A stretch of 64,000 nucleotides of DNA, from the NCBI RefSeq assembly GCF_900110435.1, contig NZ_FODT01000002.1, positions 496,001-560,000 of the forward strand. The letters are read 5' to 3'. Shown here in pieces: positions 18,107 through 43,354 of the stretch (its first letter is position 1; each line of letters opens with the position of its first letter). The notes under the pieces are model-generated. The model saw only the letters and a list, made by a program, of their open reading frames with translations, did no database searches and was not told the DNA's origin. The stretch is from Rhodopseudomonas pseudopalustris (GTDB lineage Bacteria > Pseudomonadota > Alphaproteobacteria > Rhizobiales > Xanthobacteraceae). The position numbers were made by a program, and so were the translations under genes.

Positions 18107-18253
18107 CGGATCCCTTCGCCCATATCGAGAATGGCGGACAAGGTCCGCTGCGACAACGGAAATGGACCATGCGCCGCCGCCCATGCAATTGATCTTTCGC
18201 AATCGTGCAATTCGCTTGCCGGTGTAGGGCTGTGGCGCAACAGACGGACAAAG

Positions 18254-27341: not shown

Positions 27342-27935
27342 TCAGCGCGCAGCTGCGGCCGCGGCCCTGTTGCGGTCTTCCTCGGTCTCCTGCTCCCAGC
27401 GCAGAATGGTCGCGTAGAGATTCTGGAATTTGTTCGTGGTCTCGCCGTCGAACATCGGATCCTTGCTGGCCTCGATCCGGGCGTCGATCTTGGCCCAGTC
27501 CTCGGCAGTCAGGGTTTCCAGCGCGGCCGGGAACAGCAACTGCTCTTCCTTCGCCATGTGGCGGCGCTGATGCTCGAGGAAATCCTGCGCAGCAGCGTGG
27601 AAGGTCTGGCGCGGCAGTTCCTGGTCGGCCAGCACGTCATCCACCACCTTGGCGAAGCGGGCCAGGCGTTCGCCCTCGACCTCGTGCTCGGCCTCGACGT
27701 CTCCGACAGCGCCGGCGACCGCCGGATTGCGTTCCTTGAGGATCTGATAGACCACATCTTCCTTGGGATGATGGCAGGCTTCCGGGTACTCCTTGAAGTA
27801 CTGGATGATGGCCTGGAAGATTTCGTAATCGGGCCGTTCGCGACGGTCGAACACGCTGAGTTCACGCTCGATCACACTGAGGAGCTTCGCAATGTTGCGG
27901 TGCTCTTCGTGCAGCAGTTCAATGATTCGTGACAT
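27342..27935 (-). CDS. Hemerythrin-domain protein
   Basis: A four-helix bundle predicted to bind a non-heme di-iron centre and sense or carry oxygen or NO. The His/Glu pattern is visible: LLHEEHRNI in helix 1, EACHHPKEDVVY in helix 2, EHEVEGER and EHQRRHMAKEEQLLFP in helices 3 and 4. 197 aa from the ATG at 27935. A TTGCG-N4-ATCAA box centred 94 bases upstream, with TATCTT at the right spacing downstream of it, suggests control by an FNR/FixK-type regulator, which suits an oxygen- or NO-related role. Confidence 0.92.
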   Translation of the reverse strand: MSRIIELLHEEHRNIAKLLSVIERELSVFDRRERPDYEIFQAIIQYFKEYPEACHHPKEDVVYQILKERNPAVAGAVGDVEAEHEVEGERLARFAKVVDDVLADQELPRQTFHAAAQDFLEHQRRHMAKEEQLLFPAALETLTAEDWAKIDARIEASKDPMFDGETTNKFQNLYATILRWEQETEEDRNRAAAAAAR

Positions 27936-28022
27936 GGCTGACCTCGACTGCTCGCTGACCGGAAACACCGCGGCTGCGGCAAAAATCCAAGGCGGAAGAT
28001 AGTGGTCGGCGCGCGTCGATCC

Positions 28023-28036
28023 TTGCGTTAGATCAA
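28023..28036 (-). promoter_or_regulatory. FNR/FixK-type box, hemerythrin promoter
   Basis: TTGCGTTAGATCAA, a one-off match to TTGAT-N4-ATCAA. TATCTT (27996-28001) lies about 31 bases from its centre, as expected for a class II activator site. Confidence 0.65.
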
Positions 28037-28069
28037 TGGCCGCGGGCCGCTATCAGTCGCAACAAGCAA

Positions 28070-30496
28070 TCACTCCAATCGGGCGGTGCGCAGCCGCAGC
28101 GCATTGCCGATCACACTCACCGACGACAGCGACATCGCCGCCGCTGCAATGATCGGCGACAGCAGCAGGCCGAAGCTCGGATACAGGACGCCGGCCGCGA
28201 TCGGGATGCCCGCCGCATTGTAGATGAAGGCAAAGAACAGATTCTGCCTGATATTGCGCATCGTCGCCCGCGACAGATGTCGCGCGCGGACGATCCCGCG
28301 CAGGTCGCCTTTCAGCAGCGTGATGCCGGCGCTTTCCATCGCGACGTCCGTGCCGGTTCCCATTGCAATGCCGACGTCGGCCGCGGCCAGCGCAGGGGCG
28401 TCGTTGACGCCGTCCCCGGCCATCGCAACGACGCGTCCTTGCTTGCGCAGATTTTCCACGACCGCGTTCTTCTGCTCCGGCAGCACTTCGGCTTCGACAT
28501 TGGCGATGCCGAGTTTCCGCGCGATGGCGTTCGCCGTCGTGCGGTTGTCGCCGGTCAGCATGATCACCGCGAGGCCGTCAGCGGCGAGCGCCTTCAACGC
28601 CTCGGGCGTCGAAGCCTTGACCGGGTCGGCGACGGCGAACAGGCCTGCGAGCCGGCCGTCGATCGCGACGCTGACGACGGTGGCGCCGTCAGCGCGCAGT
28701 TGCTCGGACTGGTCGCGCAGCTCTTTTGTGTCGATGTCGAGCGAGGCGAGGTAGGCGGCGTTCCCGATCACCAATGTTCTGCCTGCGACCTTGCCGGTCG
28801 CGCCTTTGCCGGTCGGGGCATCGAATGCTTCGACCGGAGCGAGCTCGATGTTGCGATCCTTGGCCTCGGCGATGATCGCATGGGCGAGCGGGTGCTCGCT
28901 GGCGCGCTCGACGCTGGCTGCAAGCCGCAGCAGGTCGGTCTCATCGAAGCCGGCCGCGGCGACGATCTTGGTCACCTTGGGCTTGCCCTCGGTCAGCGTG
29001 CCGGTCTTGTCGATCACCAGCGTATCGACCTTTTCCATCCGCTCGAGTGCTTCGGCGTTGCGGATCAAGACGCCGGCCTGGGCGCCGCGACCGACGCCGA
29101 CCATGATCGACATCGGCGTTGCAAGGCCGAGCGCACAGGGGCAGGCGATGATCAGCACGCTCACGGCGGCGACCAATGCGAAAGTCAGCCGCGGCTCGGG
29201 GCCGAACGTCGCCCAGGCGGCGAAAGACGCAAGTGCGGCCAGTACCACGGCCGGCACGAACCAGCCGGCGACGAGGTCGGCGATACGCTGGATCGGCGCG
29301 CGCGACCGCTGCGCCTGCGCGACCATCTGCACGATCCGCGACAGCATCGTGTCCCGGCCGATCTGATCGGCGCGCATCACGAAGCCGCCGGACTGATTCA
29401 GCGCGCCGGCGACCACCTTGCCGCCGGCCTCGCGTGTGACCGGCATCGATTCGCCGGTCAGCAGCGATTCATCCAGCGACGAGCGGCCTTCGAGGATCAC
29501 GCCGTCGACCGGCACCTTCTCGCCGGGACGGACGCGAAGCTTGTCGCCAACAGCGAGGCTGGCGATTTCGACGTCCTGCTCGGCGCCGTCCGCCTCGATC
29601 CGCCGCGCGGTCTTCGGCGCGAGGTCGAGGAGCGCCTTGATCGCGCCGGAGGTCGCCTCGCGGGCGCGCAGCTCGAGCACCTGGCCGAGCAGCACCAGTA
29701 CGGTGATGACTGCGGCGGCTTCGAAATACACCGGCACGGCGTCGCCATGGTTCCGGAGCGCTGGAGGAAACAGCTGCGGCGCCAGAGTTGCTACCAGACT
29801 GTAGACGTAGGCGACGCCGGTTCCCATCGCGACCAGCGTGAACATGTTGAGGTTGCGCGTAACCAGCGACTGCCAGCCGCGCACGAAGAACGGCCAGCCT
29901 GCCCACAGCACCACGGGCGTTGCGGATGCGAGCTGGATCCAGTTCGACAATGTCGGATCGATCAGGCCGTGGCCGCCGACGAGGTGGCCGCCCATTTCCA
30001 GAACCACCGTGGGCAGCGCCAGTGCGAGCCCGATCCAGAACCGGCGGGTCATGTCGATCAGTTCGGCGTTCGGTGGCGCATCGAGCGACACGAGTTCCGG
30101 CTCCAGCGCCATGCCGCAGATCGGGCAATTCCCCGGGCCGACCTGACGGATCTGCGGATCCATCGGGCAGGTGTAGATCGTCCCCTCCGGCACCACCGGC
30201 GCCTTCGACTTGTCGAGATAGGAAACGGGATCGGCGCCAAACTTCGTCAGACATCCGTCGCTGCAGAAATGGTGCGTGATCCCGCGATACGCGAAACGGT
30301 GCTGGCTGGTGGCCGGGTCAACGCTCATGCCGCAGACCGGATCGATCACCTTCGCGACCGCAGGTGAGGGGGCTTCATGGTCGCCACCGCAGCAGGACGA
30401 AACTGCGGCTTGCTGAGCGGTGTCGCTCGCTTTGCCGGAACAACAATTTGATTTTTCACCAGGAGAGCCGTTGCTCGCTTGCTCTATGCTCCGCAT
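28070..30496 (-). CDS. copA: Copper-translocating P1B-type ATPase
   Basis: Pumps Cu+ (or Ag+) out of the cytoplasm. 808 aa. A Cys-rich N-terminus (two CC pairs within the first 40 residues) precedes a YHS-like domain ([20 protein letters not shown]) and a heavy-metal-binding domain ([21 protein letters not shown]) in place of the usual CxxC ferredoxin-like domain. The pump core follows: TGE loop LLTGESMPV, transmembrane metal site CPCALG, phosphorylation motif [12 protein letters not shown] motif EHPLAHA, and hinge [10 protein letters not shown]. It is divergent from a CsoR-type regulator across 53 bp. Confidence 0.95.
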
Positions 30497-30523
30497 ATTG
30501 CGTCTCCGTGGTTCTTGAAACCG

Positions 30524-30540
30524 ATACCGTGTAGGGGTAT
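30524..30540. promoter_or_regulatory. Candidate CsoR operator
   Basis: ATACC, seven bases, GGTAT: a GC-centred dyad in the 53-bp gap between copA and the csoR-like gene, placed to control both promoters. G/C-rich dyads flanked by AT are the known operator type for CsoR-family repressors. Confidence 0.6.
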
Positions 30541-30549
30541 GTAAGTGCG

Positions 30550-30825
30550 ATGAAGTCAGACATCAAGGCATCTTGTCAGAAGCGCCTCGGCAGGATCGAG
30601 GGTCAGGTGCGCGGCATCTCCAAAATGCTGGATGAGGACCGCTATTGCATCGACATCGTCACGCAGATTTCAGCGGTCCGCGCGGCGTTGCGGCGGGTCG
30701 AGGAAGAGGTCTTGAAAGATCACGTCGCGCATTGCGTCGAACATGCGATCGCAAGCGGCGACAAGTCCGATCAGCGCCAGAAGATCGCCGAACTGATGGA
30801 GGTGATCCAGCGGTCCAGCCGTTGA
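30550..30825 (+). CDS. csoR: CsoR/RcnR-family metal-sensing repressor
   Basis: A 91-aa all-helical repressor that leaves DNA when it binds metal. The Cu-sensor ligand set is present: C33, H58 and C62 (RYCID and DHVAHCVEH), matching the Cys-His-Cys of CsoR rather than the His-rich set of nickel-sensing RcnR. The conserved N-terminal [12 protein letters not shown] block is present. Its position beside a Cu+ ATPase and the dyad between them makes copper control of both genes likely. Confidence 0.92.
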
Positions 30826-30873
30826 TCCGAGACGATCCAGAGACGACCACGTTGCGGTCGAACAATGGACCGA

Positions 30874-31530
30874 TCAGTTCAACTGCTTCTTCTTGGCCGG
30901 CGGTCCAAACAGCGACTTCTTGACCGCCGTGATGCCGTTGGACAGCTGGGTCCAGCCGCAGGACAGCGGGTCGTTGTTGCAGGCGTATTTGGCCATTTGC
31001 ACCGGCCGTTGTTTGTCGCCTGTGCGCGCCTTCTCGGACGGCGGAGGCGGCTTCGCAGGTGCGGAACGCGGCTTATCCACAGCCAATCGCGGCTTGACGA
31101 TCGGGCGAGCCTCGGCCGGCGCCTTGTCCTGCGTTAGCGCTGCGATCTGTTGCTGTCTGGCTGCGAACGCTGCGGCGATGATGGTCTTGCGCCGCTGGTC
31201 GAGAAATTCGGTGTAGTGCTCGTCCATCTTGCGCAATTCTTCGGCGGTCGGGTTCGGCCCGGCGATGTCGAAGCTGCGGTTCTGCATGAAGTCGAAATAG
31301 CTGTAGCCGCCGCCCGGCTTGCGCCGGCCCGCGAATTTCGCGTCGCATTGCGCGACAAGAGCCGCCTTGGCGTCCTTGCCATCTGCGGCCTTCTCGCCTG
31401 TCTCGATGCAATCCTCGTAGTCGAGCGGTGCGCGGCTCGACCACCACTCCGCCTGCGCTTGCGACGGCAGGGTCGCTGCGGCCAGCGCAATCGCAAGATG
31501 GATCGAGGTCAGCGTTCGGAAATCGGTCAT
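30874..31530 (-). CDS. Secreted hypothetical protein
   Basis: A 218-aa protein with a signal peptide (start at 31530; TSIHLAIALAAATLPSQAQA). The mature part begins EWWSSRAPLDYEDC, has a helical middle (EELRKMDEHYTEFLDQRR...), a Pro/Lys-rich linker and a C-terminal segment with two Cys (ACNNDPLSCGW). It is not a family I can name. It is convergent with the csoR-like gene. Confidence 0.6.
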   Translation of the reverse strand: MTDFRTLTSIHLAIALAAATLPSQAQAEWWSSRAPLDYEDCIETGEKAADGKDAKAALVAQCDAKFAGRRKPGGGYSYFDFMQNRSFDIAGPNPTAEELRKMDEHYTEFLDQRRKTIIAAAFAARQQQIAALTQDKAPAEARPIVKPRLAVDKPRSAPAKPPPPSEKARTGDKQRPVQMAKYACNNDPLSCGWTQLSNGITAVKKSLFGPPAKKKQLN

Positions 31531-31877
31531 GCCCGTCCCAAGGCAGCGGATCACGCGAAGTTCGCAATGATTTCGCCGTCCGGGAGCGCGATTTGTCAAG
31601 CTTGACGGCCACGGCAGTCGCTAGCCAGTCCAACTTCGGCTCCCACATCAATGACAATGCCCGGCACCGCGGCTCGTTCAAGCCCGTGGGTGTCGAACAC
31701 CACGAAAGATGTGACTCGCGCGCTTTCGCCCGTCGGCCGAATCCGCGCAGCGACTGCACCGCGCCGGCCGCAGCGGACTCTCATCGGTTTCCGACAGCAT
31801 CAGCGAGGGGACGTGACTTACTCTCGCCGCGAGCACCATTTGGCTCATGGTTCACTCGGTCGTTGCAGCGAGTTTGG
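31531..31877. other. Intergenic region
   Basis: 347 bases with no gene that looks real. A 12-bp perfect palindrome GTCAAGCTTGAC lies about 70 bases upstream of the secreted hypothetical protein. Confidence 0.5.
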
Positions 31878-32420
31878 TCACTTGGCGTCGGCGAATTCCT
31901 TCTGGTGCAGCCAGGCGGTATGGCGCGGCGGCTTCTTGGTCTCCGCCCATTCGTCGACCATGGCATGGGCGACATCCTTCATCTGCGCGAGTTGCTGGGG
32001 CGTTGCGGTCCAGGCCGCGACTTCGAGCCGGTGGCCGCTTGGGTCCCAGAAGTAGATCGACTTGAAGATGGTGTGGTCGGTCGGCCCGACCACGTCGAGG
32101 CCGTTGGCCTCGGCACGCTGCTTCGCGCTCAGCAGCGCGTCGATGTTTTCGACCTGGAACGCGATGTGCTGGGTCCAGTCGGGCGTGTTGGGATCGCGGC
32201 CCATCGGCGGCGAATTCGGCAGTTCGAAGAAGGCCAGAATGTTGCCGGCGCCGGCATCCAGGAAGATGTGCATGTAGGGGTCGGGCGCTTTGGTCGAGGG
32301 CACCTTGTCCTCGGCGATCGCCCCGATCAAATCCATACCCATCACCCGGCCGTAGAATTCGACCGTCTGCTTGGCGTCCTTACAGCGATAGGCGACGTGG
32401 TGGATTTGCTGGATCTGCAT
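31878..32420 (-). CDS. VOC-superfamily (glyoxalase/dioxygenase-like) protein
   Basis: A 180-aa vicinal-oxygen-chelate protein with a metal-binding His near the N-terminus (IHHVAYRCKD), HIAFQVENIDAL in the second module, and the C-terminal Glu in DPSGHRLEVAAW. The fold supports glyoxalase I, ring-cleaving dioxygenase or related metal chemistry; the substrate is unknown. The ATG follows GGGAGG. An FNR-type box is centred 71 bases upstream and a second perfect dyad overlaps the predicted -10 region, so it is probably activated at low oxygen and also controlled by a second regulator. Confidence 0.88.
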   Translation of the reverse strand: MQIQQIHHVAYRCKDAKQTVEFYGRVMGMDLIGAIAEDKVPSTKAPDPYMHIFLDAGAGNILAFFELPNSPPMGRDPNTPDWTQHIAFQVENIDALLSAKQRAEANGLDVVGPTDHTIFKSIYFWDPSGHRLEVAAWTATPQQLAQMKDVAHAMVDEWAETKKPPRHTAWLHQKEFADAK

Positions 32421-32443
32421 GACATCCTCCCGACTTGCTTACT

Positions 32444-32470
32444 GCGTTTGATCCGCATTGGATCAAACGC
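32444..32470. promoter_or_regulatory. Perfect 11-bp inverted repeat in VOC-gene promoter
   Basis: GCGTTTGATCC, five bases, GGATCAAACGC. It lies between the FNR box and the ATG, over the position where the -10 element would fall. This suggests a repressor operator; the half-site TTTGATCC also resembles FNR half-sites but the spacing is wrong for FNR. Confidence 0.7.
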
Positions 32471-32484
32471 GAGCGGCCGGGAGA

Positions 32485-32498
32485 TTGACGTAGATCAA
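32485..32498 (-). promoter_or_regulatory. FNR/FixK-type box, VOC gene
   Basis: TTGACGTAGATCAA; matches TTGAC-N4-ATCAA, centred 71 bases upstream of the VOC ATG. Confidence 0.75.
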
Positions 32499-32579
32499 CG
32501 ATCAGCTGTGGCCGATCGAGTTCGCGCACGTACCAACCGCGCTTCGCATCAGCGCGGCGGCCAGCGCATCACAGGCGCC

Positions 32580-32882
32580 TCAGGCGGCGAAGTGCTCGGC
32601 CGAGACCGAATTGGCTTGATCGATGTGGTCGAGGTCGGACAATTTCGTCGTCGTCTTGCCGCGGCAGGACCACGAGATCAGCGCCTCGTCGTCGCTGATC
32701 GACAGGATGATCCCAGTAACGCTGCCATGGGCGGTCACCTCGTCGCCGACCGAGAACGTCTCGTTGGCGAGCGCGGCTTCCAGCGCGGCGCGAAGGCTGA
32801 CATCGTCACGGCCGCCAGCGGCACGGAAAGCAGCGGTGGCCTTGGCGACCATATCGTCGGTGACTTTGAGTTTCTGGTTCAT
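32580..32882 (-). CDS. Hypothetical protein
   Basis: A 100-aa acidic protein. The N-terminal half is helical (TDDMVAKATAAFRAAGG...). The C-terminal half looks like a small beta-barrel (FSVGDEVTAHGSVTGIILSI, then EALISWSCRGKTTTKLS), reminiscent of a KOW/SH3-like module. No family was recognised. An FNR-type box 181 bases upstream could drive it through a leader of about 140 bases. Confidence 0.6.
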   Translation of the reverse strand: MNQKLKVTDDMVAKATAAFRAAGGRDDVSLRAALEAALANETFSVGDEVTAHGSVTGIILSISDDEALISWSCRGKTTTKLSDLDHIDQANSVSAEHFAA

Positions 32883-33056
32883 TGTTGTTACCCCGATCGG
32901 TCAGATCATCGACAGCGATACGCGTCGGCAATTAACGATCTACGACTATGGGCGGTGCGGCCAACCGCATGAGCTATTTTCCGTTAATGGAAAGCGCCAA
33001 TTTCGCTGGCATATTACCGCTAGCGGTACTTATGCACCTGATGCGGCCGATTTGGA

Positions 33057-33070
33057 TTGACCTGGATCAA
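33057..33070 (-). promoter_or_regulatory. FNR/FixK-type box
   Basis: TTGACCTGGATCAA, in the gap between the hemN terminator and the 100-aa gene. A -10-like CATAAG lies about 32 bases from its centre on the reverse strand. Confidence 0.7.
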
Positions 33071-33074
33071 AAAT

Positions 33075-33102
33075 GGCAACGCGCGCCGAAGCGCGCGTTG
33101 CC
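33075..33102 (-). terminator. Terminator of the bchE-bchJ-hemN operon
   Basis: Perfect 12-bp stem GGCAACGCGCGC / GCGCGCGTTGCC, four-base loop, with a T-rich run on the reverse strand, 20 bases after the hemN stop. Confidence 0.85.
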
Positions 33103-33121
33103 GAACAAAACGGGCAGTTCT

Positions 33122-34471
33122 TTAGACGGCGACCGAATGCCGGACCGACGAATTGCGCAGGTAGGTGTCGAAAACCGAGGCAACCACGCGCGATAGCCGG
33201 ATACCTTCCGGCGTCAGCGTCAGCTTGCCATGATCGCAGACCACGGCGCCATCGCGCTGCAGGTCGGCAAGCGCTTCCTCTTCCGGCGCATACCAATCAT
33301 CGGCATAGCCGAAGGCGCGACCTGCCGCGGCGAGATCGATCTTGCCGTCACACATGATCCGCTCGATCACATGCGCCCGCAGATTGTCCTGCTGGGTGAG
33401 CGTGTGGCCGCGCGCGACCGGCAGCTTGCCGGCCGCAACGGCGCGCGCCCAGGCGCCGGTTTCGCTGATGTTCTGCAGATAGCCGCTCGGCGTACGGCCG
33501 ATGGAGGTCGAGCCGATCCCGATCAGGGTCTGTGCGGCGTCGCTGGTGTAGCCCTGAAAATTGCGGTGCAACTCGCCGGTCTTCGCGGCGATCGCCAGAG
33601 AATCATTGGGCAGCGCAAAGTGATCGATCCCGATCCGGACGTAGCCGCCCTTGACCAGCGCGTCCGCCGCGGCGTCGGCTTGCTCGGAGCGCAAATCCGA
33701 CTTGGGCAGCGAGTCGTCGGGAATCATCCGCTGGTTCTTGGCGACCCACGGCACATGCGCGTAGCCGAACAGCGCGACCCGGTCCGGTTTCATTTCGACG
33801 CACTGCTCGACAGTGCTGCGCAGGTCTTCGGCGGTTTGATAGGGCAGGCCGTAGATCAGATCGAAATTGATCCGTTGCACGCCCGCCGCCTTGAACCGGG
33901 CCATCGCATGGGCGACCATCTCCGGCGGCTGGATACGGTTGATCGCCGCCTGGACTTTCGGGTCGAACTCCTGGGCGCCGAAGCTCGCGCGGGTGAAGCC
34001 GAGCTCGCCGATCTTCGCGGCCATCTCGTCGGTCAGGGTGCGCGGATCGCTTTCGATCGCAACTTCGGCGTCGGAGACAAACTCGAAGCGTTCCCGCAGC
34101 AGTGTCATGATCGCGCCGAGGTCCTCGGGCTCAATGACGGTCGGAGTGCCGCCGCCGAAATGCAGATGGCGCACCGGCAGGGTTCCGGGCATCGCGTCGG
34201 CGACCAGATCGATTTCGTCGATCAGGCTCTCGACATAGTCGGCGACTGGTCCGTATTTCGACGCGAGCTTCATGTTGCAGCCGCAGTACCAGCACATCTG
34301 CTTGCAGAACGGCACGTGCAGATACAGCGAGATCGGCTCGTCGGTGTCGAGCTGGGCAAGCCAGCCGCGATAGACGGATTCCGGAAACTCGTTGGCGAAG
34401 TGCGGCGCGGTCGGGTAGCTGGTGTAACGCGGCACCGAGCTCTTGGCGTATTTGTCGAGGGCAGACGACAT
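33122..34471 (-). CDS. hemN: Oxygen-independent coproporphyrinogen III oxidase
   Basis: A radical-SAM enzyme that decarboxylates coproporphyrinogen III without oxygen, supplying protoporphyrin for heme and bacteriochlorophyll in anaerobic growth. The cluster motif CKQMCWYCGC at about residues 62-71 has the family Cys-x3-Cys-x2-Cys-x-Cys form, followed by HFGGGTPT. The length of about 449 aa is standard for true HemN rather than the shorter HemW. It is the last gene of the bchE operon, 28 bp after bchJ. The start at 34471 is preferred over a GTG 15 bases upstream. Confidence 0.95.
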   Translation of the reverse strand: MSSALDKYAKSSVPRYTSYPTAPHFANEFPESVYRGWLAQLDTDEPISLYLHVPFCKQMCWYCGCNMKLASKYGPVADYVESLIDEIDLVADAMPGTLPVRHLHFGGGTPTVIEPEDLGAIMTLLRERFEFVSDAEVAIESDPRTLTDEMAAKIGELGFTRASFGAQEFDPKVQAAINRIQPPEMVAHAMARFKAAGVQRINFDLIYGLPYQTAEDLRSTVEQCVEMKPDRVALFGYAHVPWVAKNQRMIPDDSLPKSDLRSEQADAAADALVKGGYVRIGIDHFALPNDSLAIAAKTGELHRNFQGYTSDAAQTLIGIGSTSIGRTPSGYLQNISETGAWARAVAAGKLPVARGHTLTQQDNLRAHVIERIMCDGKIDLAAAGRAFGYADDWYAPEEEALADLQRDGAVVCDHGKLTLTPEGIRLSRVVASVFDTYLRNSSVRHSVAV

Positions 34472-34498
34472 TGGCGTTTCTCTCACATCGTCCGCGGA

Positions 34499-35209
34499 TC
34501 AACGCGCGGAAAGGGTTTCGGAATTGCCGGCGATCGAGGTCGAGCGCCGGGTCGCATAAATGTTGGCCGCGTCCGGAATGGTGGTCCAGTCCGCGACGAA
34601 GCGGCAGCAGTCGTCGCCGCGGGCTCCGCAGGTGGTTTCGGTCACCCTGGTATAGGGCGACACCAGCACCTGGAACAGCCGTTGAAAGACGGCGGCGTGC
34701 CAGACGCAGACCTGATGGTCGGCGTGCTCGCCGGCGCATAGCGGATTGGCTGCGATCTCGAACACGACGGTCTTGCCGACGCGCGACGAGAACTTGCCCG
34801 AGCCGGCGAATGTCCAGGCATGAGCGCCGATTGCTTTGGTCAGCATTCGCGCGGCGATCGGCGCCGGCATGATTTTCAGCACCGTCTGCGCCAGCTTCGG
34901 AATCCGGTTGGCGAGGATATAGTCGCCGGTCCGGCGCCCGGCGTCGTCGAGAATCGCCGCCGCCTGCTGCGGCGGCAGCAGTCTGCGGACCGTCCGATGA
35001 ATCGCCGCGACCGGGCGCTCGTCGACCATCGCGGTCGGCGGATGCGCCAGCCAGTCGCTCGCAGCCGCCTCCGAGAAGATCTCGCTCGCGGCCGGCTGAA
35101 GGCCGGCCGCGTCGAGGGCGGTGATCAACTGCGTGACCGCGTTAGGGCCGATCTCGGCAACTGCCGGACCGGTCCCGGCGTCAGTGGCGGGTGTGCGAAC
35201 CTGCTTCAT
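34499..35209 (-). CDS. bchJ: BchJ, V4R-domain protein of bacteriochlorophyll synthesis
   Basis: A 236-aa protein with a C-terminal V4R domain ([35 protein letters not shown], and the Cys cluster [11 protein letters not shown]). BchJ was long described as a 4-vinyl reductase and is now usually seen as a helper affecting the 8-vinyl/porphyrin intermediates. It overlaps the end of bchE by 29 bases and is followed closely by hemN, so the three are one transcription unit. Same length and context as in other purple bacteria. Confidence 0.9.
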
Positions 35210-36884
35210 TGGCGTTGTCCACCATGCGGCTGGTTACGGTCTCCGCCAATGCTTCCTTGGCGACTTCACAATTGCTCGGTTCCGACATCTGCTCGGAGCC
35301 GCCACCGCAGGCCGAGACGATGGCCATCTGCGAGGCCGCCGACTTTCGCGAACGATCGGCGTTGGCTTCCCAGTCTGAGGTCTGCGCGTCGGCGATCGTG
35401 CGGGTCGTGTCGAAGTGGAAGTCGACCTTCTTCTTCGACTGCGGCCCCCAATAGCCGACCCGGCCCAGATCGTAGAACTTTCGCTCGAATCCGGCCTTCA
35501 GGAACGCCTTGAGGCAGCCCAGCAGGTAACGTCGTCGTCGTCCGGTGCCGGACCACGGGTAGGAGAAGAACGCTTTGTACATGTAGAACCGGCGATAATT
35601 GTTCATCACCCGGTCGAGCAGTTCGCCGCGCTCCATCGCCGCCGGTTTCACGATCGGCGTGACGAAGTTGTATTTGGCGAAGTCGAACACCTCGACCTTG
35701 TCGCTCAGTTCCTTGAACAGCGGCGTGAACGGCCACGGCGTGTACATCGACCAGTTGGCGAGATCCGGCTTCCAGTCCATCGCCATGCGATAGGTTTCTT
35801 CCAGCGTCTCCGGGGTTTCGCTGTCGAGGCCGACGATGAACTGGGCTTCCACGACGATGCCGGCTTCGCGCAGCAGGCGGATCGCCTTTTTATTGTCGGA
35901 GATCTTGGTCTCTTTGTTGAACAGGTCGAGCTTGAGCTGCGCCGCAGCCTCGGTGCCGAGCGAGACGTGCATCAGGCCGGCTTCGTTGTAGAACTTCAGC
36001 AGCTGCTCGTCGCGCAGAATGTCGGTGACGCGGGTGTTGATGCCCCACTGCACCTTCTTGTTCAGGCCGCGCGCGATCAGTTCTTCGCAGAACTGAATGA
36101 ACTTCTTGCGGTTGATGGTGGGCTCTTCGTCGGCCAGAATGAAGAAGCCGACTTGATACTTGTTCACCAACTCTTCGATCTCGTCGACCACCTTCTTCGG
36201 GTCGCGAACGCGATAGTCGCGCCAGAATTTCCACTGCGAACAGAACGAACAGGTGAACGGACAGCCGCGCGCCATGTTCGGAATCGCGACGCGGGTGTTC
36301 ATCGGGATGTATTTGTAAAGGGTCCAGTCGAGGATGCCCCAATCCGGGCTGATCGCGTCGAGGTCCTTCACCGTCGGTGCGGCCGGCGTGGCGACGATCT
36401 TGCTCTCGCCGTTCATGCCCTCGGTGTAAGCGAGACCCTTGATCTCCGCACGATTGGCCTGCCACTGGCCGGACTCGACCGCACGCGCGAGCTCGACGAC
36501 GATCTCTTCGCCTTCGCCGCGCACGATCACGTCGACCCACGGCGCTTCGGTCAGAACCTGTTGATACATGAAGGTGGCGTGCACGCCGCCCAGCATGGTG
36601 ACGACCTTCGGATCGACCTGCTTGGCCGTCTTCAGCGTCTGCTCGGCCGCGTAAATCGACGGCGTGATGGAGGTGACGCCGACCAGGTCAGGCTTGTACT
36701 CCGCCATGATCGCGGCGAGCTTATCTTCCGAAAGATCCTCCGTCATCGCGTCGACGAACTTGATGTCGGTGAACCCGTTTGTCTTCAGCGCGCCCGCCAG
36801 ATACGGCGCCCACGCCGGGGGCCAGTGGCCGGCGATCTCGGCGCCACCGGAATGATAATTCGGGTGTATGAGCAGGATGCGCAC
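35181..36884 (-). CDS. bchE: Anaerobic Mg-protoporphyrin IX monomethyl ester cyclase
   Basis: A cobalamin-dependent radical-SAM enzyme that closes the isocyclic ring of bacteriochlorophyll, taking oxygen from water. The N-terminal B12-binding domain spans about residues 1-140 (start [14 protein letters not shown]), and the radical-SAM cluster motif CPFTCSFC lies near residues 209-216. The conserved [10 protein letters not shown] and [12 protein letters not shown] blocks follow. 567 aa. The promoter carries an FNR-type box and two PpsR-type sites, so expression needs low oxygen and release of PpsR. First gene of bchE-bchJ-hemN. Confidence 0.96.
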
Positions 36885-36903
36885 TGACTTAATCTCCCAT
36901 GAT

Positions 36904-36946
36904 TGTCAAGAAACGATGACATACGCAGTGTCAACCATTGTTGACG
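36904..36946. promoter_or_regulatory. Tandem PpsR/CrtJ-type sites in the bchE promoter
   Basis: Site 1 at 36904-36921 is an exact TGT-N12-ACA. Site 2 at 36929-36946 is TGT-N12-ACG (one mismatch). The 7-bp gap between them is close to the usual cooperative spacing. Site 1 covers the expected -10 region; site 2 overlaps the FNR box. Confidence 0.75.
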
Positions 36947-36954
36947 CAGATCAA
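36941..36954 (-). promoter_or_regulatory. FNR/FixK-type box, bchE
   Basis: TTGACGCAGATCAA, centred 63 bases upstream of the bchE ATG. Confidence 0.8.
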
Positions 36955-37041
36955 ACGAACGGCGGATCGCAAGCCGGAGACACTTGCTTCAGGCCTCTCC
37001 GGGATGCGTAGGGGGCGGCGTCTAGATCCTGTCGGCAGGTA

Positions 37042-37473
37042 TCAAGACTCCGCAGCAAAGTTGGCGTCGTGCTGGAGCGCCCTGAGCGAGTCGACGTTCA
37101 GGCAGTAGCGCTGATACGATTGCAGCAGCGTGCCGGCGACGATGTCGTCGTTGCACTCCCGCTTGTGCTCGCACATCGCGCAGGTTCGCCGCAGATCGTT
37201 GAGCAACATCGGGTCCTTTTCCGCGAGCGCACGGATACTGATACCGAGCGCGTCGAGCAGGCAGGGGAGCTCCTTGGCGCTGCTTCCCTTGGTCGCGAGC
37301 GCGCGCACCTCGGAGGGGGACAGGTCGAGATCCTTCACCATGTTGGCCATTGCGCGGCCGAATGCTTCGAGTTCGCCCGGGCTGGCAGTGATCTCTTCCC
37401 ATTCTCGGACGACGGCGGCGACGACATCGGTTACGGGCGCGTTGCTGATGCTAGGATTGCCGGATGCAGACAT
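37042..37473 (-). CDS. DUF6455-type Cys-rich protein
   Basis: A 143-aa protein. The C-terminal part has the pattern TCAMCEHKREC, then about 20 residues later YCLNVDSL; four cysteines in this arrangement are typical of DUF6455 proteins and could hold a metal or cluster. The start at 37473 has GGAGG six bases upstream. An FNR-type box centred 62 bases upstream is at near-perfect class II spacing to a TATATC -10 element (37501-37506), so anaerobic induction is likely. The function of the family is not known. Confidence 0.8.
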   Translation of the reverse strand: MSASGNPSISNAPVTDVVAAVVREWEEITASPGELEAFGRAMANMVKDLDLSPSEVRALATKGSSAKELPCLLDALGISIRALAEKDPMLLNDLRRTCAMCEHKRECNDDIVAGTLLQSYQRYCLNVDSLRALQHDANFAAES

Positions 37474-37500
37474 GATCGCCTCCAACGCAACTATTGTGCT

Positions 37501-37542
37501 GATATACTCACCGGCGTTCTGCATCCCATTGCGCCAGATCAA
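37501..37542 (-). promoter_or_regulatory. Class II FNR/FixK promoter of the DUF6455 gene
   Basis: Box TTGCGCCAGATCAA at 37529-37542. Its centre is 32 bases from the centre of TATATC (37501-37506, reverse strand), the geometry of a -41.5 activator site. Confidence 0.8.
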
Positions 37543-37556
37543 GGAGTGCGACGCGG

Positions 37557-37582
37557 TTGCGATGGATCAAAGATGTTATAAT
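37557..37582 (+). promoter_or_regulatory. Second FNR-type box and forward -10 element
   Basis: TTGCGATGGATCAA at 37557-37570, followed by a consensus TATAAT at 37577-37582 facing the phosphoesterase gene. The box overlaps the -35 region of this forward promoter, a position where an FNR-type protein would repress rather than activate. It could also help the reverse promoter. Confidence 0.6.
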
Positions 37583-37715
37583 GACTGGGTCGCGCCGGTC
37601 CGAACGGCAGCACTGAAAACGACTGCCAAGACCGCGATTTCATGCCTCCGGGCGTGACGTGCCAACAATCGACATCCGCTCGCAAAGAGCGGGTCAAGGA
37701 AGCGGGAGGTCGGAC

Positions 37716-38456
37716 GTGCTGCTTGCGCTTTTTGCTGACATTCATGCCAACCGGCAGGCCTTCACAGCGTGCATGGCCAAGGCGCGCGAGCAGGGGGCTG
37801 AGAAGTTCGTTCTGCTCGGCGACTATGTCGGCTACGGTGCCGATCCGGATTGGACCGTCAGCAGCGTGATCGATCTGGTCGACAACGGTGCGATCGCCAT
37901 CCTCGGCAATCACGACAGCGCGATCGGCAATCCGAAAGTGCAGATGAACGCCGAGGCGGAGGCGGCGATCGAGTGGACCCGCGGTCAGCTCGACGTCGCG
38001 CAGCGCCAGTTTCTCGCAGGCTTGCCGATGAAGCATGAGGCCGGCAGCCTGCTTTACGTCCATTCCGAAGCGACGCGGCCGGAAAGCTGGATCTACGTCA
38101 CCGACACTGCGATCGCGTCGCGCAGCATGCAGTCCGTCGCGGCGCATGTGACGTTCTGCGGCCACGTCCACAAGCCAGCACTTTATTCTTTGTCGGTCAC
38201 CGGCAAGATGACCACTTTCGTGCCGACCGCAGACGTCCCGGTGCATCTGTTGCCTGGCCGGCAATGGCACGCCGTGCTGGGTTCGGTGGGCCAGCCGCGC
38301 GACGGCAATCCTGCGGCGGCCTATGCGCTCTACAATACCGAGAAGCGCGAGCTGACCTATTGCCGCGTGCCGTACGACGTCGAGGGCGCGGTCCGCCGGA
38401 TTCGAGACAACGGCCTGCCGATCTGGCTTGCCGAGCGTCTGCTCGTCGGGCGGTGA
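37716..38456 (+). CDS. Metallophosphoesterase (calcineurin-like)
   Basis: A two-metal phosphoesterase with all core motifs: ADIHAN (DxH), GDYVGYG (GDxxxxG), GNHD, a His block and GHVHKP. 246 aa. The GTG at 37716 is chosen because GGGAGG lies six bases before it and it starts directly with the first beta strand; an earlier GTG at 37659 lacks this support. GDYVGYG is the form seen in PPP-like protein phosphatases and in YfcE/ApaH-type enzymes. It ends six bases before a protein kinase gene, so it may be the opposing phosphatase. Confidence 0.88.
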   Translation: MLLALFADIHANRQAFTACMAKAREQGAEKFVLLGDYVGYGADPDWTVSSVIDLVDNGAIAILGNHDSAIGNPKVQMNAEAEAAIEWTRGQLDVAQRQFLAGLPMKHEAGSLLYVHSEATRPESWIYVTDTAIASRSMQSVAAHVTFCGHVHKPALYSLSVTGKMTTFVPTADVPVHLLPGRQWHAVLGSVGQPRDGNPAAAYALYNTEKRELTYCRVPYDVEGAVRRIRDNGLPIWLAERLLVGR

Positions 38457-38461
38457 TCGCG

Positions 38462-39901
38462 ATGGATCGCCACTCGTTCGAGCCCGGCTCGGTGGTCGAC
38501 GGCTATATCATCGAGGGTCCGCTGCATCGCGGCGGCATGGCGTCCCTGTTCGCGGTCCGGCGCGCCGACGATCCGACGCCCATGGTGATGAAGATTCCGC
38601 GGATGGGCGAGGGCGAAGACCCCGCCGCGATCGTCAGCTTCGAGATGGAGCAGATGCTGATGCCGCGGCTGAGCGGGCCGCATGTCCCCCGATTCGTCGG
38701 ACTCGCCGATTTTTCGACGCAGCCTTACATCGTGATGGAGCGGATCGCCGGCGAGCCTTTGCTGTCGCGGTTGCCTGATCTGCCGTTGTCCGATGACGAG
38801 GCCGTCGGGATCGCGGCGAAGATCGCCGCAGCGCTTGCCGATCTCCATCGCCAGCATGTGATCCACCACGACATCAAACCCAGCAACATCATGTTCCGGC
38901 CAAGTGGCGAGGCGGTTCTGCTCGACATGGGGCTTGCCTGCAGCGATCAGTTGCCCGACCTGATGCAGGAGGAATTCCGGCTTCCGTTCGGCACCGCGCC
39001 CTATATGGCGCCGGAGCGACTTCTCGGGGTGCGCAACGATCCGCGCAGCGACCTGTTCGGCCTCGGCGTGCTGCTTTACTTCTTCACCACCGGCGTCCGT
39101 CCGTTCGGCGAAACCGAGACGATGTACGGCATGCGCCGGCGGCTGTGGCGCGATCCGGCGCCGCCGCGCAAATTGCGACCGGACTATCCGCCCTGGCTAC
39201 AGGAAATCGTGCTGCGTTGTCTGGAGATCGAGCCGGCCTGGCGCTACCCAACGGCCGCGCAACTGGTGTTCGATCTCACCCATCCCACAGAGGTCAAACT
39301 CACCACCCGCTCGGAGAAGCTGAAGCGCGATTCGCTGAAGACGGTGCTTCGCCGCCGCTTCAACAAGGAGCTGACGCGGTCGCGCAAGGAGACGCTCGCG
39401 GCGCACCTCGCGTCGGCCCCGATCGTCGCGGTCGCGATCGACGTATCGGAAGGTGCGGCAACTCTGAACGAGGAGTTGCGGAGCACAGCGGGGCGCATCC
39501 TGGCGACGCTGCCGTCCGCGCGGCTCGCCTGTCTTAACGTGCTGAAGCTCGGCCGCATGACGATCGACCGGACGCTGGACGAGCACGGACACAACAAGCA
39601 TGTCGATCGTCTGGTCGCGCTGCGGCACTGGGCTGAGCCGTTGAAGCTCGATGACGCTCGTCTCACCGTGCATGTGCTCGAGGCGGTCGATCCGGCCTCG
39701 GCGATCCTCGAATTCGCGCAGGCGAGCCGCGTCGATCACATTCTGATCGGCGCGCGCCGCAATTCGGTGTTGCGCACACTCGCCGGCAGTGTCTCGGCGA
39801 AGGTCGCCAGCGAAGCGAACTGCACGGTCACGATCGTCCGCTCCGCCGTCGCCGCGCAGGTGCGGACATCTGGAAAACATGCCGCGTCTCAGGACAACTG
39901 A
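38462..39901 (+). CDS. Ser/Thr protein kinase fused to a UspA domain
   Basis: A 479-aa soluble fusion. Residues about 12-280 form a Hanks-type kinase: Gly-rich loop GPLHRGGMASLF, ATP-Lys K44 (VMKIP), catalytic loop HHDIKPSN with D137, DMG with D155 in place of DFG, and APYMAPE. Residues about 300-465 are a universal-stress-protein domain (PIVAVAIDVSEG, then ILIGARRNS and SVSAKVASEANCTVTIVRS), whose Gly-x-Gly-type nucleotide loop looks partly altered. There is no transmembrane segment. It follows the phosphoesterase by five bases, so the two are one operon. A low-oxygen stress signalling pair is an inference from FNR-type boxes upstream. Confidence 0.9.
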   Translation: MDRHSFEPGSVVDGYIIEGPLHRGGMASLFAVRRADDPTPMVMKIPRMGEGEDPAAIVSFEMEQMLMPRLSGPHVPRFVGLADFSTQPYIVMERIAGEPLLSRLPDLPLSDDEAVGIAAKIAAALADLHRQHVIHHDIKPSNIMFRPSGEAVLLDMGLACSDQLPDLMQEEFRLPFGTAPYMAPERLLGVRNDPRSDLFGLGVLLYFFTTGVRPFGETETMYGMRRRLWRDPAPPRKLRPDYPPWLQEIVLRCLEIEPAWRYPTAAQLVFDLTHPTEVKLTTRSEKLKRDSLKTVLRRRFNKELTRSRKETLAAHLASAPIVAVAIDVSEGAATLNEELRSTAGRILATLPSARLACLNVLKLGRMTIDRTLDEHGHNKHVDRLVALRHWAEPLKLDDARLTVHVLEAVDPASAILEFAQASRVDHILIGARRNSVLRTLAGSVSAKVASEANCTVTIVRSAVAAQVRTSGKHAASQDN

Positions 39902-39971
39902 GGCGGTCCAGGCAGGACGATCGTCGTGTCGAGGGATTGGCTTTCGGGCGTCTCCACGTGGAGACGTTCAG

Positions 39972-40622
39972 TCAGTTGATCATCAGACGGTCATCAACCG
40001 CTGCTACGCCGGGTGTCGACCACGCGGCGTTCTGAACAGCGCGACGTTCGTCCCAGGTATCGACGCGGCCCTCCAGAACGACCATGTTGCCGTTCTTCAC
40101 CGTGACGCGAATGCCTTTGGATGCGATCTCGGCGTGGCGCTCAAGTGCGGATTCGAGTTTAGACCGGATACAGGAATGGTCGCCGAGTGGATTGTTGATG
40201 ACGATATCGTTCGTAACGCCGACGACGCCGGCGAGCTTTCGGACGTCGTCCTCGGCGGCGGCTCGTTCGTAGTACCAGTCAACGGTGCCGCTCAGCGTCA
40301 GCCATCCATCTTCGACCTGAACCTCGATCGAATTCGCCGGCACCAAAATGTTCCAGTCGAGGATGTCGGATGCGCGCTGCGCGATCTGGTCGTCGGCGGT
40401 CTTGGTGAATGGGTAGCAAACGTCGATGTGCTCGGAGATCGCATGCACACCTTTGACGCGACGCGTCGCTGCGATCGCCGCGAGTTTCTCGGCGTAGCTG
40501 ATGACGTGACCGGTGAGGATCACCACGTCGCCTTCAACAGTGACATTGATGTGCCCGCTGTTGAAGCTCGGATCGAACTCGAACTCGTCAAGGATGTCTT
40601 GACGAAGCTGGGACTCAGACAT
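39972..40622 (-). CDS. Triple BON-domain protein
   Basis: A 216-aa protein made of three consecutive BON domains (about residues 4-70, 78-148 and 150-216), each with the V-x-V-x-x-G-x-V-x-L-x-G-x-V strand pattern (VTVEGDVVILTGHV, VQVEDGWLTLSGTV, VTVKNGNMVVLEGRV). There is no signal peptide, so it is probably cytoplasmic, unlike OsmY. The start at 40622 has GAGG upstream. Two FNR-type boxes lie in the promoter. BON domains bind membranes or ligands; here a stress role is likely but unproven. Confidence 0.9.
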   Translation of the reverse strand: MSESQLRQDILDEFEFDPSFNSGHINVTVEGDVVILTGHVISYAEKLAAIAATRRVKGVHAISEHIDVCYPFTKTADDQIAQRASDILDWNILVPANSIEVQVEDGWLTLSGTVDWYYERAAAEDDVRKLAGVVGVTNDIVINNPLGDHSCIRSKLESALERHAEIASKGIRVTVKNGNMVVLEGRVDTWDERRAVQNAAWSTPGVAAVDDRLMIN

Positions 40623-40686
40623 GGTCGGCCTCTGGAGTTCCGCCGCGCTAACGGGCGGCATCTTCCGTGCTTGAAGGTCAAGCACA

Positions 40687-40700
40687 TTGATCCCAATCAA
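40687..40700 (-). promoter_or_regulatory. FNR/FixK box, consensus, BON gene
   Basis: TTGATCCCAATCAA, an exact TTGAT-N4-ATCAA, centred 71 bases upstream of the BON ATG. Confidence 0.85.
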
Positions 40701-40718
40701 GAAGAAGCGACGTCAAGG

Positions 40719-40732
40719 TTGATCTACGTCAA
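40719..40732 (-). promoter_or_regulatory. Second FNR/FixK-type box, BON gene
   Basis: TTGATCTACGTCAA; one mismatch to the dyad. Its centre is 32 bases (about three helical turns) from the first box. Confidence 0.7.
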
Positions 40733-40840: not shown

Positions 40841-40862
40841 AGTGTCAGGATTTGCTGACACT
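40841..40862. repeat. 22-bp inverted repeat upstream of phosphoketolase
   Basis: AGTGTCAG, GATTTG, CTGACACT; perfect 8-bp arms, about 140 bases before the phosphoketolase start. Operator or RNA hairpin. Confidence 0.6.
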
Positions 40863-40999: not shown

Positions 41000-43354
41000 A
41001 TGTTTGACGTGCTGTCCGATGATTTGATGCAGAAGATGGACGCCTATTGGCGGGCCGCTAATTATCTGTCGGTCGGACAGATCTATCTTCAGGACAATCC
41101 ACTGCTCGAACAACCGCTCCGGATCGAGCACATCAAGCCGCGTCTGCTCGGGCATTGGGGAACGACGCCGGGGCTGAACCTGCTCTATGTCCACCTTAAC
41201 CGACTGATCAGCGCGCACGACCTCGACATGATCTACATCATCGGGCCGGGCCATGGCGGCCCGGGTCTGGTGGCGAATTCGTATCTCGAAGGCTCTTACA
41301 CTGAGCGCTATCCGGCGATCGAACGCAATCGCAATGGGCTGCAGCGTTTGTTTCGCCAGTTCTCCTGGCCGAACGGCGTGCCGAGTCATGTTTCGCCGGA
41401 AACGCCCGGTTCGATTCACGAGGGCGGCGAGCTCGGCTATTCGCTGGCACACGCCTATGGTGCGGCCTTCGATAATCCCGATTTGATCGTCGCCTGCATC
41501 GTCGGCGACGGAGAGGCCGAGACGGGAGCGCTGGCGACGAGCTGGCACTCCAACAAGTTTCTCAACCCGGCGCGGGATGGCGCGGTGCTGCCGATCCTGC
41601 ATCTCAACGGTTTCAAGATCGCCAATCCGACGATTCTTGCGCGGATCGGCCGGCAGGAGCTCACCGATCTGATGCGCGGTTACGGCTACGAGCCGATCGT
41701 GGTCGAGGGCGATGATCCCAAGCTTGTGCATCATACGCTCGCCGCGGCGCTGGAGCGCGCACTGGCCGATATCCGCGCGATCCAGGCTGCGGCACGCCAT
41801 CAAGGTGTCACCGTGCGGCCGCGTTGGCCGATGATCATCCTGCGCACGCCGAAGGGGTGGACCGGGCCAAAGCAGGTCGACGGCAAACAGATCGAGGGGA
41901 CCTGGCGCGCGCACCAGGTGCCGATCGCAAGTTTCAAGGACCCGACGCACGTCCAGCTTCTGGAAGCATGGTTGCGCAGCTATCGGCCGGAAGAGCTATT
42001 CGACGCCAGCGGCAAGTTCCGCGACGATCTGGCGGTGCTGGCGCCGACCGGTCATCGCCGGATGAGCGCCAATCCTCACGCCAATGGTGGCGAATTGCTG
42101 CAGCCGCTGTCGCTGCCCGACTTCCACGGCTACGCGGTGACCCAATCCGGGCCGGGGACGGTCAAGGCCGAGGCCACCCGCGTGCTCGGCGCGTTCTTGC
42201 GCGATGTGATGAAGTCGAATCTCGACGCCAAGAATTTCCGTCTGTTCGGACCCGACGAGACAGCCTCGAACCGCCTGGACGCGGTCCTCGAGGTCACCGA
42301 CAAGGAGTGGATGGCGGAGATCGAGGATGTCGACGTTGCGCTCGGCCCCGACGGTCGGGTCATGGAAGTGCTGAGCGAGCATTTGTGCCAGGGCTGGCTC
42401 GAGGGCTATCTGCTGACCGGACGTCACGGCTTTTTCTCGTGCTACGAAGCCTTCATTCACATCGTCGGTTCGATGTTCAACCAGCACGCCAAATGGCTGA
42501 AGACGTGCGACGCGATTCCGTGGCGTCGCCCGATCGCCTCGCTGAACTATCTGCTGACCTCCCACGTCTGGCGCCAGGATCACAACGGCCTCTCGCATCA
42601 GGACCCGGGCTTCATCGATCACGTCGTCAACAAGAAGGCGAGCGTCGTCCGGGTCTATCTGCCGCCGGACGCGAACTGCCTGCTGTCGGTGGCGGATCAC
42701 TGCCTGCGCAGCCGCAACTACGTCAATCTCATCGTCGCAGGCAAGCAGCCGGAATGGCAGTGGCTCGACATCGACTCCGCGGTCAGGCATTGCTCGGCCG
42801 GCGCCGGAATCTGGCATTGGGCGAGCAATGGCGAGGATGATCCCGACGTGGTGATGGCCTGCGCAGGGGACGTGCCGACGTTGGAGACGTTGGCAGCGGT
42901 GATGCTGCTGCGCGAATACGTGCCCGACATTCGCGTCCGGGTCGTCAACGTCGTGGACCTGATGGTGCTGCAGCCGAGCTCCGAACATCCGCACGGCCTC
43001 GATGACAAGCGCTTCGACGAGATTTTCACCGTCGACAAGCCCGTGGTCTTCGCATTTCACGGCTATCCGTGGTTGATCCACCGACTGACTTACCGGCGAC
43101 GCAATCACTTCAACATCCACGTCCGAGGTTACAAAGAAGAGGGCAGCACAACGACGCCGTTCGACATGGTGGTGCTGAACGATCTCGATCGTTACCGGCT
43201 GGCCCTCGACGCGATCCGCCGGATCCCGCGTCTCGCTGGAGAGGTCGAGGCGGCGACCGCGCGATACTGGGCGACGATGCAGCGGCACAAGCTGTATATC
43301 GGCGAACATGGCGACGACATGCCCGAGGTTCGCGACTGGAGCTGGCAAGGCTGA
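41000..43354 (+). CDS. xfp: Phosphoketolase (xylulose-5-P/fructose-6-P)
   Basis: A thiamine-diphosphate enzyme that splits xylulose-5-phosphate or fructose-6-phosphate with phosphate, giving acetyl phosphate. 784 aa, the full family length. Hallmarks are [46 protein letters not shown], the ThDP/Mg block [20 protein letters not shown], and [13 protein letters not shown]. The ATG at 41000 is chosen because GGGAG precedes it; an ATG at 40979 is in frame. In a phototroph it could give acetyl-CoA without pyruvate decarboxylation. It lies at the edge of the low-oxygen gene group. Confidence 0.95.

Follow-up and report, generated by a model that had tools for sequence, protein, structure and literature searches.

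A 64,000-nucleotide stretch of Rhodopseudomonas pseudopalustris DNA (the window; contig NZ_FODT01000002.1 of assembly GCF_900110435.1, positions 496,001 to 560,000) carries, in its middle part, genes for a hemerythrin, a VOC protein, a 100-amino-acid protein (p100), the bchE-bchJ-hemN operon, a DUF6455-like protein (p160), an operon of a phosphoesterase and a Ser/Thr kinase with a fused universal stress protein (USP) domain, and a BON-domain protein homologous to OsmY. The promoter regions of these units contain 14-bp boxes of the FNR/FixK type (Table 1). Very probably, the boxes are promoter elements of a FixK/FNR low-oxygen regulon of a Rhodopseudomonas.

Boxes were searched as TTGN7TCAA on both strands, with strand matches counted separately and a shuffled window as the control (n = 100). 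The window holds 18 strand matches versus a shuffle mean of 4.7, and 0 of the 100 shuffles reached 18. Eight distinct sites fall within positions 27935–40732, exactly where the initial annotation had placed eight boxes in 13 kb, and four more lie elsewhere in the window, including a conserved site at 18189. The 5.27-Mb genome contains 454 strand matches, compared with 245 for the reversed control, and the 12.8-kb block clearly exceeds this background, with 13 strand matches seen and 1.1 expected. A stricter pattern modelled on the block's own boxes gave 99 strand matches genome-wide (control, 0), or 89 distinct sites by count of the list; eight of these 89 lie in 12.7 kb, where 0.21 are expected, and 2000 random placements put at most five in any comparable 12.7-kb span. 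As the stricter pattern comes from the block's own boxes, enrichment is fairly tested by the general one.

Promoters were aligned with those of up to eight other Rhodopseudomonas loci, the window being counted in each total. In these alignments, the boxes form conserved blocks amid diverged flanking DNA: they are present in every aligned promoter of bchE, p160, p100, VOC, and BON (proximal box), and in all but one at the distal BON box. The box at 37557 is exact in 6/9 promoters, has one mismatch in locus L021, and is gone in L026 and L027. The hemerythrin gene has an upstream box in all 15 genus genomes that carry it, R. pseudopalustris included (16 searched). Among hemerythrin relatives outside the genus, 5/12 loci have a box, all five among the six closest (13 loci were fetched, and L235 was left out). 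The low-oxygen regulon is well supported because the hemerythrin, p100, bchE, DUF6455-like, and BON boxes are conserved in relatives.

Promoter geometry is class-II-like at some of the boxes. In six promoters (hemerythrin, VOC, p100, bchE, p160, and BON), the -10-like hexamer 21–22 bp from the gene-proximal box on the gene-sense side (listed in Table 1) outscores that on the other side in 6/6 cases (one-sided Wilcoxon p = 0.016). Only the hemerythrin and p160 hexamers are individually strong, exceeding the 99th and 95th background percentiles, respectively; the VOC hexamer is at the 95th percentile, and those of p100 and BON exceed the 90th. For the claim that several boxes have a -10 element at class II spacing, the evidence is mixed: strong for two promoters, moderate for VOC, p100, and BON, weak for bchE, and none for the phosphoesterase-kinase operon, with two further boxes favoring the wrong side (scores below). 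The box at 37557 has poor hexamers on both sides (-0.6 and -5.2).

Over the -10 region of bchE lies a TGTN12ACA palindrome, also found in 8/8 relatives, which we take to be similar to a PpsR/CrtJ operator. The motif occurs 11 times across the window, so by itself it is weak evidence for an operator. A palindrome of the same form, TGTCA-N8-TGACA, lies upstream of the phosphoketolase gene (40843–40860) and in 5/8 relatives (L020–L024), and is possibly a second operator shared with bchE.

The genome encodes candidate regulators. HTH_Crp_2 has 19 matches, 16 of them above the cut-off. The protein at C12:385179 is a FixK2 orthologue, scoring 377 bits over 220 residues against the solved Bradyrhizobium FixK2 (4i2o). 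FixK2 production runs through FixL-FixJ. The translation at C12:403666 has an FNR-type cysteine-rich N-terminus; its best NCBIfam model is FnrL, below the curated cut-off, and we take it to be AadR-like. A third FixK-like protein is encoded at C10:48741. Judged by these similarities, both a FixK2 orthologue and an FNR-like protein are available to act on the boxes. The next group noticed in the list of strict sites, five in 16.5 kb at C12:386519–403060, adjoins the FixK2-like and FNR-like genes.

Published fixK-mutant data bear directly on one of the units. In R. palustris TIE-1, osmY and a phosphoketolase gene were tested as FixK candidates (PMC3050613); by function and adjacency, these genes (Rpal_1868 and Rpal_1869) are taken to correspond to the BON and phosphoketolase genes of the window. 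According to the tables of that study, osmY is up 2.3- to 18.6-fold anaerobically and down 2.8- to 145-fold when fixK is mutated, while phosphoketolase changes 0.7- to 2.4-fold anaerobically and 10.1-fold on Fe(II). The initial annotation had read the boxes as an FNR/FixK-type regulon, which is well supported by box conservation, class-II-like geometry at some promoters, and the osmY data. It had also considered the targets non-standard members apart from bchE and hemN; this needs correction for BON (osmY) and the neighboring phosphoketolase, already FixK candidates in print.

Several points weigh against the regulon as drawn here. The case is built on sequence and TIE-1 data rather than on expression in the window strain, and the TIE-1 phosphoketolase is fixK-dependent mainly on Fe(II) (PMC3050613). 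The stricter box pattern is partly circular. The bchE -10 is below the 90th percentile (sense side 0.6, other side 0.4), the wrong side scores better at the distal BON box 40719 (sense 0.5 vs. 1.9) and at the HlyD box 18189 (sense -1.0 vs. 1.1), and the phosphoesterase-kinase operon has no -10 at class II spacing on the plus strand. In locus L027, the distal BON box has been lost, and no box lies within 250 bp of the phosphoesterase start. Finally, FNR, FixK, and DNR recognize very similar sequences (PMC2908626), so the boxes alone cannot name the regulator.

Table 1. Boxes, genes, and other features of the block and its surroundings (window positions; fractions are aligned promoters with the box unless stated otherwise).
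Feature	Position	Strand	Evidence and remarks
HlyD operon box, outside 27935–40732	18189..18202		16/16 genus genomes, own included
HlyD-type adaptor, first gene of probable exporter operon	18254..19516	+	PF16576 8.9e-24
Hemerythrin HHE domain protein	27342..27935	-	PF01814 3.4e-17
Hemerythrin box, TTGCGTTAGATCAA	28023..28036		Pattern match; TATCTT 21 bp off, sense side
VOC (glyoxalase-fold) protein	31878..32420	-	PF00903 8.6e-18
VOC gene box	32485..32498		Pattern match; 3/3 aligned island promoters; hexamer TCCAAT
p100, 100-aa protein	32580..32882	-	Limited to Rhodopseudomonas and nearest genera
p100 box	33057..33070		Pattern match; 8/8; hexamer CATAAG
hemN, oxygen-independent coproporphyrinogen III oxidase	33122..34471	-	TIGR00538 450 bits
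bchJ	34499..35209	-	TIGR02019 176 bits
bchE, anaerobic Mg-protoporphyrin IX monomethyl ester cyclase	35181..36884	-	TIGR02026 791 bits
TGTN12ACA palindrome at bchE -10, putatively PpsR/CrtJ-like	36904..36921		Window and 8/8 relatives
bchE-bchJ-hemN operon box	36941..36954		9/9; hexamer CATCGT
p160, DUF6455-like	37042..37473	-	Invariant C98, C101, C107, C124; start re-set, ATG 37473
DUF6455-like gene box, sense side TTGATCTGGCGCAA	37529..37542		9/9; TATATC at 22 bp
Second p160/phosphoesterase intergenic box	37557..37570		28 bp from first
Calcineurin-like phosphoesterase	37717..38456	+	Start probably GTG 37717; PF12850 9.5e-14 (longer frame from 37659)
Ser/Thr protein kinase-USP fusion	38462..39901	+	PF00069 9.8e-30, PF00582 7.6e-13
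Three-BON-domain protein, osmY homologue	39972..40622	-	PF04972 3.1e-50
BON (osmY) proximal box, perfect TTGATN4ATCAA	40687..40700		9/9; hexamer GAAGAT
BON distal box	40719..40732		32 bp from proximal; 8/9
Phosphoketolase, divergent from BON	41000..43354	+	XFP families

The phosphoesterase-kinase operon is an ancient-looking target whose control in the window strain is the weakest item of the list originally proposed. The kinase-USP protein has its nearest relatives in Rhodopseudomonas loci (up to 88% identity). Outside Rhodopseudomonas, a box lies no more than 250 bp before the phosphoesterase start in 67/71 loci, mostly at 56–60 bp, although these loci are mostly Bradyrhizobium and not independent (L044 is at a contig edge). 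In Rhodopseudomonas, such a box occurs in 7/8 loci; the reversed pattern gave 0/79 and the region downstream of the operon 1/79. The close box, at about -57, has disappeared from the window and from 6/8 relatives (L020–L024 and L027), and boxes further upstream remain in 5/6 relatives that lack it.

The DUF6455-like family is the part of this analysis most worth following. By itself, p160 has no Pfam match at E ≤ 0.001, and it scores 13.5 bits (E 0.08) against PF20056, short of the gathering cut-off of 23.7 bits. However, 21 of the 23 family members in the alignment have a PF20056 hit at E ≤ 1 (1.8e-7 at best), which ties p160 to the family; we therefore keep the original DUF6455 label only in the weaker form, DUF6455-like. 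The four cysteines are invariant in 23/23 aligned members, and the motif recurs in 39/40 further loci; this feature of the C-terminal half was derived in the present analysis, not from Pfam. The predicted structures of p160 and p100 are of low confidence (predicted local distance difference test scores of 50.0 and 47.6, respectively).

DUF6455-like matches occur in 59/119 genomes of the bacterial family. For the best 70 of the 83 matches listed, a single pattern, TTG(A/C)N6(T/G)CAA, was compared with four controls: an upstream box was found at 60/70 loci, versus 4, 0, 0, and 3 of 70. In 57/70, the box falls between -130 and -15, mostly near -70 to -53. At least one boxed locus occurs in 23/26 genera, and 44/54 loci outside the island-bearing genera are boxed; a second copy in the same R. 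pseudopalustris genome, at C8:275382, is among the loci examined. In other families of the class, 11/17 DUF6455-like loci are boxed within 400 bp, with 0/17 for the controls. These 17 leave out loci of the own family (L153, L154, L167), repeats of one place (L171–L178, L184), downstream genes in tandem (L182, L185), a locus at a contig edge (L161), and a frame without the motif (L180); a 500-bp upstream look gave one control match, in L165 at -429, outside the 400-bp range. The family is sparse at class level, found in 14/385 genomes by the alignment-based model, among them the own genome and one family member, and in 13/289 by PF20056; a PF20056 search of the own genome at E ≤ 0.001 gave no match and so missed its own copies. 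Genome G151 carries three adjacent DUF6455 genes in tandem (L169, L182, L185), and a single FNR-type box precedes the first of them.

In full-text literature, DUF6455 appeared in one paper, on an ethylene receptor, most subscription papers lying outside the search. Published FixK/FNR cores (PMC2908626) and a FixK2 target table (Table 2 of PMC9104804) include several hypothetical proteins, and earlier work may contain DUF6455-like genes under that name. As far as this literature search shows, the FNR/FixK-type box on DUF6455-like genes is new, and its frequency suggests an unrecognized core member of the alphaproteobacterial low-oxygen regulon. From their cysteines, we guess that the proteins bind a metal or an Fe-S cluster, and they are perhaps redox-responsive partners of respiration or tetrapyrrole enzymes. 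A broader joint proposal, that DUF6455-like proteins are an unrecognized core component of the alphaproteobacterial low-oxygen response under FNR/FixK control nearly everywhere, and that the kinase-USP and phosphoesterase add a phosphorylation layer, is tentative and somewhat doubtful as a whole. If true, an oxygen-controlled kinase-USP with its own phosphoesterase would add such a layer to the Bradyrhizobium/Rhodopseudomonas hypoxia response. For the uncharacterized family, the same oxygen switch at 60 of those 70 loci and in 23 of the 26 genera offers a function-related handle.

Around the remaining units, the evidence is more varied. Inspection by eye shows a hairpin plus T-run where hemN ends, directly before the p100 box and separating hemN from it. 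Since hemN lacks a separate box, it is treated as belonging to the bchE-bchJ-hemN operon. No Pfam family matches p100 at E ≤ 0.001 (best YajC, 0.16), and p100 occurs in 8/119 family genomes, in three genera. For VOC, 22 of 30 fetched loci were examined and six have a box: 4/4 island copies and 2/18 others. Homologues at 75–79% identity have none (0/5), while those at 71% (box at -204) and 67% (-98) do; this distribution is patchy and points to late or repeated gain, or else to loss. Between the VOC box and the VOC start (32448–32470) lies an inverted repeat, GTTTGATCC-N5-GGATCAAAC, with at most one change in 3/3 aligned promoters and a spacer differing by one base. Between boxed genes (28070–30825) sits a gene for a P1B-type ATPase that contains YHS and HMBD domains. 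It diverges from a gene for a CsoR/FrmR-type repressor, and the stretch between the two starts has no TTGN7TCAA site. The two genes behind HlyD look ABC-like by eye. A near-perfect FixK/FNR box (45787–45800) lies 248 bp upstream of an open reading frame that begins at 46035 and has an EAL domain at its end.

Could the boxes be chance intergenic palindromes, their clustering an artifact of reading? The background of the pattern is high, both in the reversed genome control and in the four sites elsewhere in the window, but no shuffle reaches the window count, boxes are conserved in up to nine promoters with diverged flanks, and no control pattern exceeded 4/70 where the DUF6455-like box reached 60/70; we regard chance as extremely improbable. 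It is also unlikely that the main regulator is another Crp/Fnr member, of the NnrR/DNR type or the C10:48741 protein, answering to nitric oxide or another cue. The 16 HTH_Crp_2 matches over the cut-off offer such candidates, and the hemerythrin is weakly similar to YtfE/RIC-type proteins (25.5 bits, cut-off 204.7), yet the TIE-1 osmY is strongly fixK-dependent (PMC3050613), and FnrL targets bchE and hemN in R. sphaeroides (PMC2908626). For the boxes at 37529 and 37557, the chances are even that they serve only the DUF6455-like gene and that the phosphoesterase-kinase operon is not oxygen-regulated in the window strain: the plus strand lacks a -10 at class II spacing and the close box is gone, but one or both boxes lie at most 190 bp from the phosphoesterase start in 6/8 Rhodopseudomonas loci, and another spacing could work.

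Whether the block is an island, as the initial annotation suggested, is a separate matter. Gene order was compared in 40 of 80 loci, those listed (eight Rhodopseudomonas and 32 outside). The order CuATPase-CsoR-p100-hemN-bchJ-bchE-p160-phosphoesterase-kinase-BON is kept in 7/7 spanning Rhodopseudomonas loci among those listed, which implies that co-location is maintained or that rearrangement is slow; a recent mobile island was rejected because of this kept order. Phosphoketolase is present in 7/8 listed loci and VOC in 2/7 spanning its place. We consider it fairly probable that there is no functional island, bchE sitting by chance amid FixK/FNR targets that are independent and differ in age, with the density as a by-product. 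The box histories differ, DUF6455-like and phosphoesterase-kinase being widespread, VOC patchy (close homologues lack the box), and p100 genus-level and confined to near relatives. Among the 32 listed loci outside Rhodopseudomonas, only BON (L031) and hemerythrin (L042) were found near a boxed phosphoesterase-kinase operon. Moreover, boxes reach out to 18189, and this conserved HlyD box outside the interval makes the block borders arbitrary. The block, a conserved set of separately boxed units, illustrates how such a part of a regulon is put together: some boxes are old and kept in place, one is patchy, and one has been lost beside others.

For the FixK/FNR regulon that we favor, the following sequence of events is proposed. 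A drop in oxygen would cause FixK2, and probably also the FNR-type regulator (AadR-like), to bind the 14-bp boxes. At several promoters, the -10 would begin 21–22 bp past the box, a class II arrangement centered near -41.5, and from this placement we propose direct contact between the regulator and RNA polymerase. The units that would then be switched on separately are: hemerythrin; VOC; p100; bchE-bchJ-hemN; the DUF6455-like gene; and BON, possibly with phosphoketolase. The bchE-bchJ-hemN products would serve oxygen-independent bacteriochlorophyll and heme synthesis, and a PpsR-like repressor over the bchE -10 perhaps also holds the operon off in air. The phosphoesterase and kinase-USP operon would be an ancestral regulon member in which the close box of the operon itself has decayed in this strain. 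We infer the oxygen response of units other than osmY, the regulator acting at each box, and the roles of the proteins. A guess from a single sequence thereby becomes a testable list of FixK/FNR targets.

The main text of PMC4999443 includes hemN and has no hemerythrin, universal stress protein, bchE, or phosphoketolase; PMC13327599 mentions RNA-seq twice and contains neither the gene names sought nor FixK terms; and no literature joining three of kinase, universal stress, FixK, and metallophosphoesterase was found. Phosphoketolase recurs: it belongs to a predicted FixK core (PMC2908626), appears as bll2518 in a list of B. diazoefficiens units with FixK2 boxes (PMC9104804), and is named, with universal stress proteins, in a microoxia comparison (PMC6515984). 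The predicted core also has HlyD and ABC transporter genes (PMC2908626), which may be of the same family as those in the window.

Among the closest systems is the TIE-1 FixK regulon (PMC3050613), which shares FixK, FixK boxes, a class II promoter at pioABC, and the osmY and phosphoketolase candidates; unlike the block, the two FixK tables consulted have by name no hemerythrin, VOC, p100, bchE-bchJ-hemN, DUF6455-like, or phosphoesterase-kinase genes. In B. diazoefficiens, where the FixK2 consensus is TTGA/C-N6-T/GCAA and box units include stress proteins, neighboring boxed units of this kind are found at bll4634-blr4655 and bsr6066-blr6074 (PMC9104804), runs that we grouped by locus number. Their contents differ, as Table 2 of that paper gives GroEL, Hsp20, DnaJ, and nitroreductase and tabulates no photosynthesis genes. 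The alphaproteobacterial FNR/FnrL core (PMC2908626) has bchE and hemN in common with the block: in R. sphaeroides, FnrL binds upstream of bchEJGP and hemN, making bchE and hemN direct targets. There the regulator is an Fe-S FNR protein, whereas FixK2 and an FNR-like protein coexist in R. pseudopalustris.

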